Both the position numbers and the translations under genes were made by a program. The notes beneath the pieces are model-generated. The model saw only the letters and a list, made by a program, of their open reading frames with translations. It was not told where the DNA came from and ran no database searches. From Rhodospirillales bacterium (GTDB lineage: Bacteria; Pseudomonadota; Alphaproteobacteria; TMED109), in contig JAPPED010000015.1 of the NCBI GenBank assembly GCA_028824295.1, forward strand, positions 124,001 through 188,000: a DNA stretch of 64,000 nt, read 5' to 3'. This document shows, one piece after another, positions 31,612 through 38,679 of this stretch (its first letter is position 1; each line of letters opens with the position of its first letter).

Positions 31612-32577
31612 TCAAAAGTGAACTTTCACCACCGAGAAGTCGTCGGGTAGCGCACCTTCACCGTACTGGGACTGCACCCACTCGTATATTTCTGCCGGTC
31701 CCCGACCGGCATCGGCGCTTGCAAAATCGACCAGGTCTTGCTGGGACAGCATCTGGTCGTCTGCGACGGGGATTTCGTACGCTCCGTCGCTATAGACCAG
31801 CAATTGATCATGTGTCTTTACGATGGTTGTCGCTTCAGGGAATTGCAGGCCCGGAAACGTGCCGATTGCAACGTTTCCCTTGTTACCCAAGAGCCTGGTG
31901 GACACCGCACCACTATCACCCGAGTCATCACGATCAACGCTGAGCAGGATCGCGGCCGGATGTCCTCCGGACGAATACCGCAGCTCGCCGCTTCGCTGAT
32001 CATGGACGCCGTACCAGATCGTAAAGAACATATTGTTCTGGTTTTCCATGGGAAACGTATCGTTGAGGGCGGCGAGGACCGAACTCGGGTCCCGAAATTC
32101 GGCGCTCGACATCGCCTGCGTCCGCAGGACATTGATGATGGTTGCGGACAGGAGGGCAGCGCCGATGCCGTGCCCGCAGACATCAATCAGGTAAATCGCG
32201 AAATGATCCGGATCTATATGGTGGTAACCAAACGAGTCACCGCCTAACTCTGTCGATGGCTCGAAATACCATTCGGTGCTCGGCCATTCGGAACGCGGCT
32301 CCGGTAGAATCGAACATGCGTAACGAGAGGCATCGTTCAGTTCTTCTTCCAGCCGTGCTTGCGTGCGTTGCAGCAGGATGTTGCTTTCCGCAAGCTGATC
32401 CTCAACCGCCTCGCCGTGAGCGATAGTGGCCTCGTAAAGCAGCTGGAGATCACTGTGCTCAGCCTCCAGCTCAGCAAGCTTGCCTCTGGTTTCCGCGAGC
32501 ATGCCAGCGAGGGCAGGTGCTACCCGCGCTTCTGCCAATTCCTGCTCAGTCAGGCTCTCAGCCGTCTCGGTGGACAT
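31612..32577 (-). CDS. cytoplasmic PP2C-type (SpoIIE/RsbU-like) phosphatase with coiled coil
   Basis: A 321-residue protein phosphatase. Residues ~25-85 form a coiled coil (LAETRGKLAELEAEHSDLQ). A PPM/SpoIIE domain follows with the metal-binding motifs LGGDSFGYHHI, LIDVCGHGIGAALLSATI and the C-terminal PDDFSVVKVHF. There is no membrane or sensor domain, so it is cytoplasmic and presumably controlled through the coiled coil. Such phosphatases dephosphorylate STAS-domain anti-anti-sigma proteins. It is divergent from the slr1658/slr1659-like cluster and is its probable second phosphatase. GCGGAG upstream of ATG 32577 is a fair ribosome-binding site. Confidence 0.87.
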   Translation of the reverse strand: MSTETAESLTEQELAEARVAPALAGMLAETRGKLAELEAEHSDLQLLYEATIAHGEAVEDQLAESNILLQRTQARLEEELNDASRYACSILPEPRSEWPSTEWYFEPSTELGGDSFGYHHIDPDHFAIYLIDVCGHGIGAALLSATIINVLRTQAMSSAEFRDPSSVLAALNDTFPMENQNNMFFTIWYGVHDQRSGELRYSSGGHPAAILLSVDRDDSGDSGAVSTRLLGNKGNVAIGTFPGLQFPEATTIVKTHDQLLVYSDGAYEIPVADDQMLSQQDLVDFASADAGRGPAEIYEWVQSQYGEGALPDDFSVVKVHF

Positions 32578-33625
32578 CGGCTCCGCTTGGCCTCAGCAAT
32601 GGACAATGCATCCTTGTGAGAATTTTGATCGCCATGCACGGTCGTGTCAAATCATGAGCTTCGGCATCTGGTGCGCAGAAACGCAAGTAAATGTCTGATC
32701 TGCGGCGCACTGTCGGGATGGCGCACACGAGTAGAACCTGATCGGTGCTGCCGGGATCCTGTCACCACTTCCGGCCCGCGCTGGCAAGTCTGCGGACCTC
32801 GGCCAAGAATTGGGGTTGGCGCGCTGGTTCGACAGGTTGAAAGATGTGGGAATGGAACGGTCCTGGGAACTCGTGCGCGTGGCGAGGTCCGGGCGGGAAA
32901 CGTGGCGCGGACTTGCGCGCAAACGGCGATCTCGGTGATCCGGCAATCGGTCAACTAGGTGGTAGCGAGCCCGGCAATGGTTCCTAGCGAGATGAGGTCG
33001 AAACCCCCAGTTCGCTGGACGCCCGGAAAGACGTCACGTGTCGTCGTGCAAACCGCTACAAGGCATATTCGTCATGGCGGGAGTGCGGTCGCTGCCGGCT
33101 GTTGGTGCACCAATCCTGTTCGGGTCGTGATTGCTCTCTGTCACGTGGCCTCGCGTGCCGCTGTCACGCATCGCCATCGGATGGGCGGGGAAAAATGCGG
33201 GGGAGTCCTGCAAGTGGCTATTCGCCGCTGTGACCAGAGGTCAGGGCCAGCCGTGAAACGGTTTCTGTGCAAGTGGGCCTTCCGAAGCAAGCTTGGTCAC
33301 GCATCCTGGTCGGATCGATCCCGCTGCGAAAACGCGCACATGTGCGCTGGTTGCCCCATTATGGCTAGCTGCAGTAGCCTGTACATAGTAGCCAACCTGT
33401 GCTATAGGTCACTGGCAAGCGGTTGGCGATGCTCTGCTAGCCTGTTGTGCGCAATAGCTTCTTCCGGCGATTGTGGAGCAGCATCCGATCTTTCTGAGAG
33501 TTCTACATGATGGCGGCCGAACGGTTGCGCACCACTCTGGCCCCGTTCAATGGTGACGGGTGCCGGAGCCGCGGCTTGCCCCGGAACCGCAAATGTGCGG
33601 ACAGGTGTGCCGGGCTGGTAACTGC
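32578..33625. other. 1-kb gene-free region between divergent signalling genes
   Basis: This must hold the promoters of both the phosphatase (minus) and the partner-switching operon (plus). Frames of 104-183 codons occur, but they have GTG starts, no ribosome sites and Cys/Arg/Ser-rich random composition. TAGCCTGT occurs at 33375-33382 and again at 33438-33445, with a variant TAGCCAACCTGT at 33389-33400. These could be regulator sites. No known RNA family is recognised. Confidence 0.4.
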
Positions 33626-34147
33626 ATGACCGATACGCAGAACAACAGCCTCCCTGAGGATGGCTACGACCTCCTTCTGGAATTCGATTTGGACACCAAG
33701 GTCTTGGATGACCAGTGGGACTATTGCGATTACATGTCGTCGTACGTTGCGCGGATGGTTAGCCATGATCGCGCTGACCCGTTCATGTTTTCGAACCTTC
33801 TGTCAGCGACCCTGAATGAGCTATTCGAGACGGTCTACCGCACTCGCAAAGAAGCGGGACAATTCCGTTTTCAGCTTCTGCGAAAAGGCCCCATTGACCG
33901 GATCACAATGCTGGTGCCCTGCGCAGCGGACGAACAGGAGTTCTACATCAAGACAGCGGAGGAACTCTGTACGGCGGACGCTTCCGAAAAATACCTGGAT
34001 CTCCTTTTTTCGGACGAGGGCTTCGACCGTCGTGTCGGGCTGTTCGAACTCGCAATTTCATACAAGGCCGCAGTATCAGCTGATGCGGTTGAGGATCGCG
34101 CGCTTCGCCTGACGGTTGACTTGGCGTTGGAGCCAGAGCCGGACTAA
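33626..34147 (+). CDS. slr1658-like (HATPase/anti-sigma-like) protein, degenerate
   Basis: A 173-residue protein that I align by eye to the product of 37715-38266. Shared points are an N-terminal W-x-x-C segment (DDQWDYCDYMSS), an N-box-like LLSATLNELFETVYRTRKEA, and the same strand order afterwards. The second protein's G-box (TGSGLGLLTLMSDYG) is replaced by DRRVGLFELAISYKA, so ATP binding and kinase activity look lost. The family corresponds to the slr1658-type regulators found beside slr1659-type STAS proteins. It overlaps the STAS-methyltransferase gene by one base (TAATG) and is presumably its binding partner. The function is inferred. Confidence 0.6.
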   Translation: MTDTQNNSLPEDGYDLLLEFDLDTKVLDDQWDYCDYMSSYVARMVSHDRADPFMFSNLLSATLNELFETVYRTRKEAGQFRFQLLRKGPIDRITMLVPCAADEQEFYIKTAEELCTADASEKYLDLLFSDEGFDRRVGLFELAISYKAAVSADAVEDRALRLTVDLALEPEPD

Positions 34148-35322
34148 TGGCAAACCCTGACTCAGCATCGTTTCAGTTCGGGTTCGACGAGAACGACCAG
34201 GTGTTCACGTTGAGTGGTTCGATGCGGCCGAAGGAGGCCAGCGAGATCAGTGCGTGTCTGGAGTCACTCCGGGCCTGTGCAATGCGAGCAACCGGGATGT
34301 TCTACGTCAACGTCCGGCGGTTACTGCAGTCCAACAACGTCGCATTCAATGGCATGGCTTCCGTGCTGTTGGAAGTCTGCCGGGAACGGCCTGACGTAAA
34401 CGTTACGATCACGATGTCCAGTGTGGTGGGGTGGACACCCAGAAAATTCAGGGTACTGCAACGAAAGATTCCTCGTATCGACGTTGTGGAGTACGACAAG
34501 GATTTCTACCCTGGACAGGCATTTGTCGAAGACAGTTCGTTTGTGTCCGTGTTGCGGAGACAGACGACGATGACATGGCGACACGAGAAGCACATACTCC
34601 CGCGTCATGGCATCGGAGAGGGTATGAAGATCGCCGACATTTGCTGCGGTATCGGCGATTTCGCAATATTGCTGTTCAAGGAGTTCAATCCGACTTACGT
34701 TGTAGCCCTCGATCACGCCAAGTCCAGTCTCGAATACGCCCGCAAGATGGCAAAGGAATTCGATGTGACCGGTGTCGAGTACGTCTACGGCGATGCTGCG
34801 GAGATGTTATTGCCAAATGGCGAGTTCGATTTCGTAACGTGCCGACACTCCCTCCAGGTCTTTGATCAACCTGAGCGCATATTGTCGGAACTGCTCCGAA
34901 TCTGTAAGCCCGGCGGCCGCGTTTACGTCACCAACGAGAAGAATTCTCACTGCCTGGGCGAGCCGCGCTCAGAATCCATCCAATGGACCTACAACGAAGT
35001 TGCTAAGCTTTGGAAGCACTTCAACATGGACATCGAAATCGGCCCAAAGAGTCGCAGGTTGTTACTTGACGCCGGCTTCGTCGATATCCGCATGGAATCG
35101 TTCATGGTGACCAATCTTGATGGTGATCCGGAGGAGTTTGCGGAGGTCGTAAGAACTTGGAGGCACATGTTCGCCGAAAGTATGGCCAGAGAGCGCGGTG
35201 ACGACGAAGCATTCATAGAGAAGTTTAAGAAGGGTTTCGACGACCATATCTTTGCTGCCCTGCATCCCAAGGGATATGCGGGCTGGCCGATATGGGTGGC
35301 TTCTGGGCGAAAGCCGCTATGA
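34147..35322 (+). CDS. STAS-like domain fused to SAM-dependent methyltransferase
   Basis: A 391-residue two-domain protein. Residues ~8-122 are an slr1659-like STAS domain: LSGSMRPKEASEISACLESL, VAFNGMASVLLEVCRERPDV and GWTPRKFRVLQRKIPRIDVV line up with the stand-alone STAS protein at 38341. Where that protein has LNSSGINLL, with the phosphorylatable Ser pair, this one has VAFNGMASV, so the phosphosite is lost. Residues ~145-391 are a class I methyltransferase: motif I KIADICCGIGDFAILLF, acidic loop ALDHAKSS, YVYGDAAEMLL and ELLRICKPGGRVYVTNEKN. The methyl acceptor is unknown. It is coupled to the genes on both sides (1-base and 4-base overlaps). Confidence 0.75.
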   Translation: MANPDSASFQFGFDENDQVFTLSGSMRPKEASEISACLESLRACAMRATGMFYVNVRRLLQSNNVAFNGMASVLLEVCRERPDVNVTITMSSVVGWTPRKFRVLQRKIPRIDVVEYDKDFYPGQAFVEDSSFVSVLRRQTTMTWRHEKHILPRHGIGEGMKIADICCGIGDFAILLFKEFNPTYVVALDHAKSSLEYARKMAKEFDVTGVEYVYGDAAEMLLPNGEFDFVTCRHSLQVFDQPERILSELLRICKPGGRVYVTNEKNSHCLGEPRSESIQWTYNEVAKLWKHFNMDIEIGPKSRRLLLDAGFVDIRMESFMVTNLDGDPEEFAEVVRTWRHMFAESMARERGDDEAFIEKFKKGFDDHIFAALHPKGYAGWPIWVASGRKPL

Positions 35323-37700
35323 GCTCCCGTCAGGGTGATAGCGGTAAGTTGTCGTTGGGGCGCTTCTCGCTTCGCAGTTTCCGCGCCAAGTTCGTGCTCG
35401 TCGTCGGCGCTGCGGTGGTGTTTGACCTGGCGATGTCTGGCGGGGTGTCAATCTGGAACATGCAGCGACTGTCCGAAGGAGCGCGGGAAGAGATCAGTGA
35501 AGGCCTGACCCAATCTACCGAGCAGTTCCTGCAGACGTCCATCGAAATGACGACGTCCCAAGCCGACCTGCTACTGGAACGAGTGCATTCCGAAGTCACG
35601 ATGTTGGCTAACGGGATGCAACTTCTGATCGACCACCCTGATGTGAAAGGTGAACTCGGCGCCGCGATTGCGGCTGACCCGGACCTGACCAGCCCGTTGG
35701 TTTACAGCGCCGAGGGTGGGTGGTCGCAAAATCTGCCGGGTGCGCCTTCCGCCGTCAGCGTCTGGGGGTATCTCTTGGATGAGAACCGCCGGCCTCTCCC
35801 CAGCACTGCCCAAGAAATTCAGGACAGCAAGTTTCTCGACCTGATGGGGCCCGCGGTTATGAAGACCGGTGCCCCCAAGTTGCAGGTCTATTACGTCGGC
35901 CCCAAGCACGCATCAATCTTGAGAGCCACGCCGTATTCGGAACAGGCCCAGACATTCGACAAACTTTATCCCGGACACAATGAAGGTCCAAATTTCTGGG
36001 ACTTTTTCTTTCCGGGGGTGTACGAGGGCTGGCAGGCTTGGTTGACTGACCCAGACGCTAGGCAGGTCGATTCCAACATTGTGATGACCGAACCCTACGT
36101 GGATGCGATCACCGGCATATTGATTGTGAGCTTTTTCCATCCGCTCTGGACTGCCGATCGCACCGACGTCGCCGGAATGGTTGCCGTCGACATCACGCTC
36201 GACCAATTGACCTCGCTCGTTGAGAGCATCACGATTGCCGATACCGGTTTCGGTTATCTGCTGATGTCGAATGGAAATGTGATTGCCATAAACGAGTCCG
36301 GTGAAGCGACAATTGGACTGGTTGCTAGCGAAGGTGGGGGACAAGGTGTAACCGGTATTGACAGATCGATCCGTAACAGTGTTCACCCGGCCATTGCGGA
36401 CATGCAATTGCCGACTGGAAGTGACGTAACCATCCAGCACTTGACACTTGACCAGAATGGCGAGGACACCGACTACCTGATCGTTCAGAAGCAGTTGCGC
36501 CCGACAAACTTGTGGAATGTCGACGGCATCGGCAAGGAAAACATGACGGTTGGTTTCGTCGTGTCGGAAGAGGAGGTGTACCAGTTACTGACGGCCGTGG
36601 AGAGCGGGATTTCCGACGCCACATCGAGAATCTACAATTTGCAGATCGCCGTATTGCTGGTCAGCCTACTTATCGTTTTCTTCGCAGTTTACGCGATATC
36701 CGGACGCATTACGGCGGGTTTAAGTGCGCTTGCCAGCGCTGCGAGGAGTTTGGAACGGAAGGACTATTCGGTTCGGGTCAACATTCCCACGCGCGACGAA
36801 GTGGGCAAGGTGGGAGTTGCGTTTAACAGCATGGTGCAGGAAATCCAGTACCATACCGAGAACCTAGAGAACTTAGTTGAAGAGCGCACTCGCAACCTTG
36901 AAGAAGCAAACCGGGAAATTGTTTCCCTTAATCAGCAGCTTCGAAGTGAGAACTTACGCCTCGGCGCTGAACTCGATGTTGCGCACCGGATTCAGAAAAT
37001 GGTGCTGCCGCGGGTCAGCGAGCTGGACCAGATACCCAAGCTGGAAATTGCCGGATACATGGAGCCAGCCGATGAAGTCGGGGGTGACTACTACGACGTG
37101 CTTCAGGACGGCTCTCGCATCAAGGTAGGTATCGGTGACGTAACAGGTCATGGCCTCGAGAGCGGCGTATTGATGCTGATGGTCCAGTCAGTGGCCCGGG
37201 CTCTTTACGAAAAAGGGGACCAGGACAACGAACGGTTTCTCGAAATCGTAAACCGTGCCATCTTCAAGAACATAGAGCGTACCGAGTCGGACAAACACTT
37301 GACCCTCGCTTTCGTCGACTACGAAGAGAACGAAGTCACGCTGACCGGACAGCACGAGGAAGTCTTGTTGGTGCGGAGCAATGGCTCGCTTGAACGTATC
37401 GATACCATGGACCTCGGGTTCCCTATCGGCCTCGAATTCGACATAGCGCAGTTTATTGGCACGCGTAAATTGAACTTCTTGAGCGGCGATACCCTCATTC
37501 TCCATACCGATGGCGTGACCGAAGCGGAAAATTTGGAAGGCGAGCTCTTTGGGCTGGAACGCCTGTGCGAGAGTGCGAAGCAGAACAGTGATGGCTCTGC
37601 TGTCGACGTGGTCAACGGAATTGTCATGGACCTCAAGTCGCACATCGGAACGCAGAAAATTCACGACGACATTACCCTCGTGGTCATGAGGCACCGGTAA
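35319..37700 (+). CDS. membrane sensor phosphatase: Cache, HAMP, coiled coil, PP2C
   Basis: A 793-residue transmembrane phosphatase. Its parts in order are: helix 1 (about residues 20-42); a large extracytoplasmic Cache-type sensor (about 50-440, including SPLVYSAEGGWSQN and SFFHPLWTADRTDVAG then MVAVDITLDQL); helix 2 (YNLQIAVLLVSLLIVFFAVY); HAMP (LERKDYSVRVNIPTRDEVGK); and a coiled coil (VEERTRNLEEANREIVSLNQ). The C-terminal SpoIIE/PP2C domain has GGDYYDVLQDG, VGIGDVTGHGLESGVLML and HDDITLVVM. ATG 35319 overlaps the previous stop (ATGA). By analogy with SiaA and RsbU it dephosphorylates a STAS protein when its ligand is sensed; the downstream STAS protein is the obvious substrate. Confidence 0.88.
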   Translation: MSSRQGDSGKLSLGRFSLRSFRAKFVLVVGAAVVFDLAMSGGVSIWNMQRLSEGAREEISEGLTQSTEQFLQTSIEMTTSQADLLLERVHSEVTMLANGMQLLIDHPDVKGELGAAIAADPDLTSPLVYSAEGGWSQNLPGAPSAVSVWGYLLDENRRPLPSTAQEIQDSKFLDLMGPAVMKTGAPKLQVYYVGPKHASILRATPYSEQAQTFDKLYPGHNEGPNFWDFFFPGVYEGWQAWLTDPDARQVDSNIVMTEPYVDAITGILIVSFFHPLWTADRTDVAGMVAVDITLDQLTSLVESITIADTGFGYLLMSNGNVIAINESGEATIGLVASEGGGQGVTGIDRSIRNSVHPAIADMQLPTGSDVTIQHLTLDQNGEDTDYLIVQKQLRPTNLWNVDGIGKENMTVGFVVSEEEVYQLLTAVESGISDATSRIYNLQIAVLLVSLLIVFFAVYAISGRITAGLSALASAARSLERKDYSVRVNIPTRDEVGKVGVAFNSMVQEIQYHTENLENLVEERTRNLEEANREIVSLNQQLRSENLRLGAELDVAHRIQKMVLPRVSELDQIPKLEIAGYMEPADEVGGDYYDVLQDGSRIKVGIGDVTGHGLESGVLMLMVQSVARALYEKGDQDNERFLEIVNRAIFKNIERTESDKHLTLAFVDYEENEVTLTGQHEEVLLVRSNGSLERIDTMDLGFPIGLEFDIAQFIGTRKLNFLSGDTLILHTDGVTEAENLEGELFGLERLCESAKQNSDGSAVDVVNGIVMDLKSHIGTQKIHDDITLVVMRHR

Positions 37701-37714
37701 CCGGGTAGCGACAG

Positions 37715-38266
37715 ATGCGCAAGCAGGTAGGGAACACAGGCATCATCAGCACGTTCAAGGCCGGTTCCTTGCGTTTGAAGCTGTTTCCCGTCCCGCTCGG
37801 CCTTGCCTGGAAACATTGCGGAATTACTTCAGATTTCCTTGGGGACTTTTATTCTGCACGTGCTGTTAGAGGTTCCGTCGATGCGAACGAGATACGTCAC
37901 AATGTGTGTTATCTTGTAAACGAAATATTAGAAAACGCTGTAAAGTTCAGGACGTCGGGTGATATTGTCATCGAATCTTCTTTGGAGAACGGTAACTTTC
38001 GGCTTTGCATCGCTAACGCTATCAGTAAAGAGGGTGCACTGCGGTTCCAAGATGTATTGAGTGGGCTGCAGGGGAGGGATCCTTCGGAGCTCTTGATCGA
38101 ACGGATAGAGCGAAATGCGGCCGATCCCAATTCAACAGGATCTGGCCTCGGCCTGCTGACGTTGATGAGCGACTATGGCGTGCAGTTGGGCTGGGATTTC
38201 CAGGCGTCCTCCGACGCGGAGGGCACGGTCCAATTGGCAACCTACGCAGTTTTGCCATTGCCATAG
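37715..38266 (+). CDS. slr1658-like HATPase-type regulator (putative STAS kinase/anti-sigma-like)
   Basis: A 183-residue protein of the slr1658 type. The N-box CYLVNEILENAVKFRTSGD and G-box STGSGLGLLTLMSDYG are those of GHKL ATPases such as RsbW, so it can probably bind ATP and phosphorylate a STAS partner. It begins 14 bases after the phosphatase and is followed by the STAS gene. Codon use here is noticeably more AT-rich than in the rest of the window (for example 37900-37950). It is the intact counterpart of the degenerate protein at 33626-34147. Confidence 0.75.
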   Translation: MRKQVGNTGIISTFKAGSLRLKLFPVPLGLAWKHCGITSDFLGDFYSARAVRGSVDANEIRHNVCYLVNEILENAVKFRTSGDIVIESSLENGNFRLCIANAISKEGALRFQDVLSGLQGRDPSELLIERIERNAADPNSTGSGLGLLTLMSDYGVQLGWDFQASSDAEGTVQLATYAVLPLP

Positions 38267-38340: not shown

Positions 38341-38679
38341 ATGGAAATCAAGACCAGCGAATACCGCATATGGGTAGAGGATGCGGTGATCCATTACGAA
38401 GGGACAATGCGACTGTCTGGAACGGAGGCCTATCAGCCGATTATGGCGATGATGAATGACGTCCTGGAGTCGCAACCTGAAGAAATCACCCTTGATTTGG
38501 TGGGACTGGAGTTTCTAAATAGTTCCGGCATTAACCTGCTTGCGCGTTTCACAATAGAAGTACGTAAGCAAAAGAGTATTGCAATTGCCGTAAAGGGTTC
38601 AACACGAATTCCTTGGCAATCGAAGTCGCTGCCGAACCTACGGAAGCTCCATCCGACGCTGCAACTGAACTTCGTTTAG
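38341..38679 (+). CDS. slr1659-like STAS-domain protein
   Basis: A 112-residue single STAS domain. The core strand-helix EEITLDLVGLEFLNSSGINL contains the Ser-Ser-Gly where anti-anti-sigma factors are phosphorylated. The end (IPWQSKSLPNLRKLHPTLQL) is characteristic of the slr1659 group. It should be phosphorylated by the slr1658-like protein upstream and dephosphorylated by one or both PP2C enzymes. No sigma factor or diguanylate cyclase is adjacent, so the output is either elsewhere or the STAS-methyltransferase of the same operon. Confidence 0.8.
   Translation: MEIKTSEYRIWVEDAVIHYEGTMRLSGTEAYQPIMAMMNDVLESQPEEITLDLVGLEFLNSSGINLLARFTIEVRKQKSIAIAVKGSTRIPWQSKSLPNLRKLHPTLQLNFV

Follow-up and report, generated by a model that had tools for sequence, protein, structure and literature searches.

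A candidate binding-only kinase/STAS pair joined to a methyltransferase in bgr-type operons

We analysed the window, a stretch of 64,000 nucleotides (G000:C15:124001-188000) from a host genome of 3.0 Mb and 97.9% completeness, and compared its S-T-U-W-V operon across 57 loci, including regions fetched from 40 more genomes. The core order S-T-U-W-V is constant in 56 of these loci, and the 57th ends with its contig after T. Two arrangements precede the core and never occur together: type I (39 loci) has a same-strand GGDEF-EAL gene in front, and type II (18 loci, among them the window and locus L011, whose PP2C gene is cut by the contig end) has a divergent PP2C phosphatase gene. Because orthologues of all parts recur in the same order elsewhere, chance open reading frames are ruled out. 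The features of the window operon are the following.

31612–32577, minus strand: divergent stalk-PP2C phosphatase of 321 residues (PF07228, E 3e-37), confined to type II loci, with none in type I
32350–32469, minus strand: conserved stalk segment of the PP2C protein, residues 37–76, with LLYEATIAHGEAVEDQLAESN, near-invariant in a 10-row alignment; candidate STAS-binding site
33353–33550, no strand assigned: conserved non-coding block 5′ of S, marked by invariant columns; probably a promoter or leader
33626–34147, plus strand: S (BgrS-like), seemingly silent slr1658/SiaB-type GHKL protein of 173 residues (NF047703, E 3e-9; fold match to SiaB 6kko; 57 loci)
33815–33844, plus strand: N-box remnant of S, NELFETVYRT, with the Glu kept and Thr at the Mg-ligand Asn position (Asn absent from 57/57 S, present in 56/56 W)
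34025–34045, plus strand: G-box position of S, DRRVGLF versus GSGLGLL (G box lost in 57/57 S)
34147–35322, plus strand: T (BgrT-like), fusion of a slr1659-type STAS domain and a class I SAM methyltransferase, 391 residues (profile matches, model, 57 loci)
34168–34512, plus strand: STAS domain of T, approximately residues 8–122 (NF047705, E 3e-6; STAS-like element order in the model)
34333–34344, plus strand: tetrad NNVA of T facing the acceptor tetrad NSSG, with Ser replaced by Asn64 (alignment with V and relatives)
34561–35319, plus strand: methyltransferase domain of T, with the SAM motif DICCGIGD kept (PF13649, E 7e-18; dN/dS 0.014–0.058)
35292–37700, plus strand: U (BgrU/SiaA-like), dCache-HAMP-SpoIIE phosphatase (PF07228, E 5e-35, HAMP and dCache; SiaA NF038263, E 9e-36)
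37715–38266, plus strand: W (BgrW-like), predicted live slr1658-type kinase with N box and GSGLGLL intact (NF047703, E 3e-49)
38341–38679, plus strand: V (BgrV-like), predicted live slr1659-type STAS protein (NF047705, E 1e-42)
38518–38529, plus strand: acceptor tetrad NSSG of V (56/56 loci)

For U, the ATG at 35319, which forms an ATGA overlap with the stop codon of T, is the likelier start. The gap between the PP2C gene and S (32578–33625) is about 1 kb long in the window's genus and in L017, a metagenome-assembled genome (MAG) filed as Gammaproteobacteria; in the remaining type II loci it does not exceed about 250 nt. The block at about 33353–33550 has a fraction of invariant columns of 0.42–0.62, versus 0–0.2 across most of the gap; an Rfam search of this block gave no match.

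Judged by its sequence, S is a diverged slr1658 relative, homologous though below the family cut-off: it matches NF047703 (slr1658 superfamily) with 36.4 bits (E 3e-9), the curated cut-off being 100 bits, and has in common with W the family positions Trp, Asn-Glu, and Glu. Its AlphaFold2 model has a mean pLDDT of 80, obtained with an input alignment of eight rows only. Among PDB entries, this model is matched best by the SiaB chain of 6kko, a SiaB-SiaC complex (Foldseek E 6e-4, TM 0.60), and SpoIIAB entries come next. The catalytic Glu of the N box is retained in all 57 loci, and the N-box Asn is in every case replaced by V, T, M, L, or I. The loss of the G box, which the preliminary description had read from the window's S, extends to the whole set, with DRRVGLF at the GSGLGLL position and no intact G box in 57 orthologues. 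The S proteins of L060 (8459-8974) and L061 (8498-9004) carry the public annotation "ubiquinone biosynthesis methyltransferase UbiE", a label that is wrong on sequence grounds, as domain searches with the window's S matched no methyltransferase.

T is, as had been proposed, a STAS-like domain fused to a SAM methyltransferase: residues 8–112 match NF047705 (slr1659 superfamily) with an E-value of 3e-6, below the curated cut-off, and residues 158–265 match a class I methyltransferase with an E-value of about 1e-17. In the model, which is poor (pLDDT 59), the N-terminal 116 residues follow the STAS strand/helix order, with Asn64 opening the second main helix. The methyltransferase domain (residues 139–391) scores 65 bits against PF13649, for a cut-off of 27, and matches PDB methyltransferases by both sequence and fold. 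The SAM motif is kept in 56 of the 57 loci and reads CSGIGD in the remaining one. The preliminary description had also set AFNG of T opposite the phosphoacceptor segment NSSG; the loss of the acceptor stands, but the register was off by three residues. NSSG of V aligns with NNVA (T residues 63–66), and AFNG, which sits three residues downstream of NNVA, is ruled out by relatives with NSTA, NMTA, and NNTA. At the acceptor position, the Ser of T is lost in 55 of 57 loci (Asn in 51, Met in 4, Ser in 2), and the Asn that matches SiaC N67 is retained in all 57. One of the two proteins that keep the Ser (NSTA) is encoded by L054 (9934-11112, minus strand); the other is probably that of its tree sister L129.

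Comparison with the second kinase/STAS pair of the same operons sets these losses apart: W keeps the N-box Asn in 56/56 loci, its G box is present throughout, with a Gly-to-Arg change in one case, and V keeps NSSG in 56/56. Both members of the S-T pair appear, as suspected earlier, to be catalytically silent, and the orthologues offer an intact G box nowhere and the acceptor Ser in just two cases. The dN/dS values are 0.09–0.20 for S, 0.08–0.21 for the STAS domain of T, 0.014–0.058 for its methyltransferase domain, and 0.07–0.18 for the live W, the most constrained of the compared parts being the T methyltransferase and V. S and T, like the live pair, are under purifying selection and are maintained rather than decaying. 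Their genes also overlap, the shared stretch being 1 nt long in the window (TAATG) and 4 nt long in 40 of the 57 loci, in agreement with the translational link noted before, and this start-stop overlap suggests a stoichiometric pair. S is the fastest-evolving core protein by mean distances, which, together with the losses in both halves, would suit a pair of relics, or a STAS domain that is just a dimerisation handle on a constitutive methyltransferase unrelated to the switch. We regard this explanation as very unlikely: the dN/dS of S and the T STAS domain (0.08–0.21) is like that of the live kinase, and the pair persists, with order and overlap fixed, in 57 loci drawn from Alphaproteobacteria and from the single MAG filed under Gammaproteobacteria. 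The relic or pseudogene form of this explanation is ruled out by dN/dS and conservation.

T is present in 7/7 genomes of the window's genus and in 0/21 other genomes of its family, the class and phylum samples being partial and draft genomes liable to miss genes. The L017 MAG carries T with 76% identity, along with the whole six-gene set; no T was found in other genomes of its order. The initial picture of a restriction to one genus was overturned by a slr1659 family search, which revealed the same pair spacing in a second alphaproteobacterial family, and by a search of that Rhizobiaceae-like family, where T occurs in 46 of 395 genomes and 15 of 109 genera. Matching plasmid records suggest that this second family is Rhizobiaceae: T is found in 120 plasmid records from Sinorhizobium, Rhizobium, Ensifer, Aminobacter, and Phyllobacterium. 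On pSymB of S. meliloti 1021, T lies at 461168-462325 and its product is 61% identical to that of the window.

In a maximum-likelihood tree of T, types I and II fall on opposite sides of one branch, with a support of 100/100. Searches for GGDEF and EAL profile matches gave none in the window's genome, six congeners, and L017, eight incomplete drafts that agree, while control genomes were positive. With no detectable GGDEF/EAL gene, the operon is therefore without a c-di-GMP route there, as far as the assemblies show. The methyltransferase is the likeliest output in the window's genus, because it is the sole conserved operon enzyme left beside the phosphatases and the kinase.

The two types also differ at the third position of the T tetrad. 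Of the 39 type I loci, 36 have Thr there (NNTA in 30, NMTA in 4, NSTA in 2); all 18 type II loci have Val, Ile, or Leu. This distribution would be expected if type I T proteins were still phosphorylated on the Thr of NNTA and the pair were silent in type II only. Such an arrangement seems very unlikely to us, since the acceptor of SiaC is the second position of its tetrad, T68 of N67-T68-S69 (PMC8457831), and since an ATP site is missing from S in every locus, which would leave W to act on T. The two T proteins with Ser (NSTA) and the Thr next to the lost acceptor in most type I T proteins (NNTA) nevertheless count against a T that is silent throughout, and T may, on sequence grounds, be phosphorylated in these Ser- and Thr-keeping loci.

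The type II PP2C protein carries an N-terminal stalk segment that is nearly invariant in a 10-sequence alignment and visible in all PP2C rows. It resembles the stalk of a GGDEF protein encoded beside a U-W-V trio in genome G454 (E 4e-6 and E 1.6e-6), in pairwise comparisons with the window and R. jaguaris PP2C which, between coiled coils, are weak evidence. A profile of the PP2C stalk gave no match to SiaD 7e6g, and a search for the stalk in plasmids gave none either. SiaC binds repeated motifs on the stalk of SiaD (PMC8457831). By way of suggestion only, V might bind the PP2C stalk, which would make the stalk a candidate site for STAS binding, carried by a phosphatase and not by a cyclase. 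The G454 locus (L058, G454:C96) is simpler: it lacks S-T and encodes a SpoIIE phosphatase, slr1658 and slr1659 proteins, and a GGDEF protein whose stalk has two repeats. It is a possible ancestral form of the operon. Alongside a PP2C relative in Nostoc, no slr1658/1659 pair was recognised. Near the R. jaguaris type II operon, genes resembling type VI secretion TssB and TssA were noticed by eye (L134, 852-3295, minus strand); none were found beside the other loci.

Work on SiaC indicates what a STAS protein without its acceptor can do. Biofilms still form with the T68A and T68A/S69A variants, whereas SiaD binding is prevented by phosphorylation or by the N67A/T68A/S69A substitution, Asn67 contributing to that binding (PMC8457831). 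A permanently binding-competent STAS domain in T fits this pattern, because the acceptor is lost and the Asn matching SiaC N67 is kept.

We lean towards the following explanation as the probable one: the locus is a bgr-type operon in which S-T is a duplicated kinase/STAS pair that has been stripped of phospho-chemistry and controls the fused methyltransferase. A kinase/STAS pair would have been duplicated, the chemistry removed on both sides with the folds kept, and the STAS half joined to a methyltransferase. The STAS domain of T would be locked in the unphosphorylated, binding-competent state, and S, without kinase activity, would serve as the dock on which T is held, this hold determining how active the methyltransferase is. 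Whether V is phosphorylated would be decided by U, the dCache phosphatase, together with the kinase W. Unphosphorylated V, or W when free, would compete for binding to S or T, and in this way a signal from outside would release the methyltransferase or shut it down. Control would thus come by competition from the live pair, since T is always able to bind and S is never able to phosphorylate. We infer this competition step and its direction, activation or inhibition; the same goes for the holding or freeing of the methyltransferase by the pair, as proposed earlier. V has a further target in rhizobia, the diguanylate cyclase BgrR, whose place is taken in type II by the stalk-PP2C protein; V may also act on targets outside the operon. 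The idea of a binding-only module, put forward in the preliminary description, gains support as the best reading, as both halves have lost their catalytic residues together and these losses are conserved across orthologues.

The live pair might instead regulate T directly, either because the T STAS domain is a decoy that W binds but cannot phosphorylate or because W is common to V and T, with S merely a structural or folding subunit of T. W keeps its full binding and catalytic apparatus, and the partial distance correlation between W and the T STAS domain is 0.82, as high as that between S and the T STAS domain in type I. This weight is reduced by the mirror-tree test itself, in which all operon pairs correlate and S-T, S-V, and W-T binding are not discriminated. 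S is, moreover, always present directly before T, usually overlapping it, and has family positions of W in common. We therefore consider direct regulation of T by the live pair unlikely, and a docking role for S in a chemistry-free pair remains our preferred explanation.

Known partner switches act by releasing a sigma factor or by controlling c-di-GMP enzymes. In every copy of the present operon, including that of the model organism S. meliloti, the second and silent switch pair is linked to a different enzyme class. Only one of the two clades has the c-di-GMP enzyme; the methyltransferase and the silent pair are common to both. We tentatively propose, at somewhat less than even confidence, that a copied, chemistry-free switch serves as a binding-only adaptor that passes an outside signal to methylation, and that, where a bacterium lacks c-di-GMP enzymes, the output is methylation and neither c-di-GMP nor a sigma factor. 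It would be a case of a signalling pair retained for binding alone, and the roles of bgrS and bgrT become open to direct testing in S. meliloti, the alfalfa symbiont.

The domain and SAM motif of T are those of UbiE/MenG-type methyltransferases, but T falls below every equivalog cut-off, and its closest STAS-free methyltransferase relatives in the plasmid set share about 30% identity with it. Within the slr1658 and slr1659 superfamilies (NF047703 and NF047705), W and V score above the cut-offs, whereas S and the T STAS domain score below and are without the catalytic residues. The preliminary description knew of no system of this kind, and here it has to be corrected: the operon corresponds to bgrRSTUWV of S. 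meliloti, a system named BgrSTUWV in PMC8457831. According to the papers citing it, the phosphatase BgrU and the kinase BgrW together control how far BgrV is phosphorylated and hence how active the cyclase BgrR is, in mixed-linkage β-glucan synthesis (Baena et al. 2019, doi 10.1111/1462-2920.14624, via PMC8457831 and PMC7647112). In pSymB of S. meliloti 1021 we find a GGDEF-EAL gene, S, T, a SpoIIE phosphatase, a slr1658 kinase, and a slr1659 STAS protein, and we take this locus as the bgr operon because number, order, and roles match R-S-T-U-W-V. By sequence, BgrS and BgrT would then be the counterparts of S and T. A bgrR gene is missing from the window, with the divergent stalk-PP2C gene in that place and no detectable GGDEF/EAL in the genome; as the diguanylate cyclase that forms the first gene is absent, its operon is a variant of bgr, not a full member. 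The motifs of U, W, and V are intact in the window operon, and control of V phosphorylation by U/W is published for S. meliloti only. In the citing papers through which Baena et al. 2019 is known to us, we did not find described the conserved silent S-T pair, the two exclusive architectures, or the genus without GGDEF/EAL. The second related system is SiaABCD of Pseudomonas aeruginosa, which likewise combines a membrane-sensor SpoIIE-type phosphatase, a GHKL kinase, and a STAS-like phosphoprotein, with an output by protein binding, not transcription, and whose SiaB fold is seen in S. The two differ in the phosphoprotein, SiaC belonging to DUF1987 (PF09345) and V of the window to slr1659, with the SiaC Pfam model reaching V at an E-value of 0.019, below the cut-off. 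They differ also in the output, which is a cyclase in SiaABCD and, in the window, probably a methyltransferase that carries a second, silent STAS domain.
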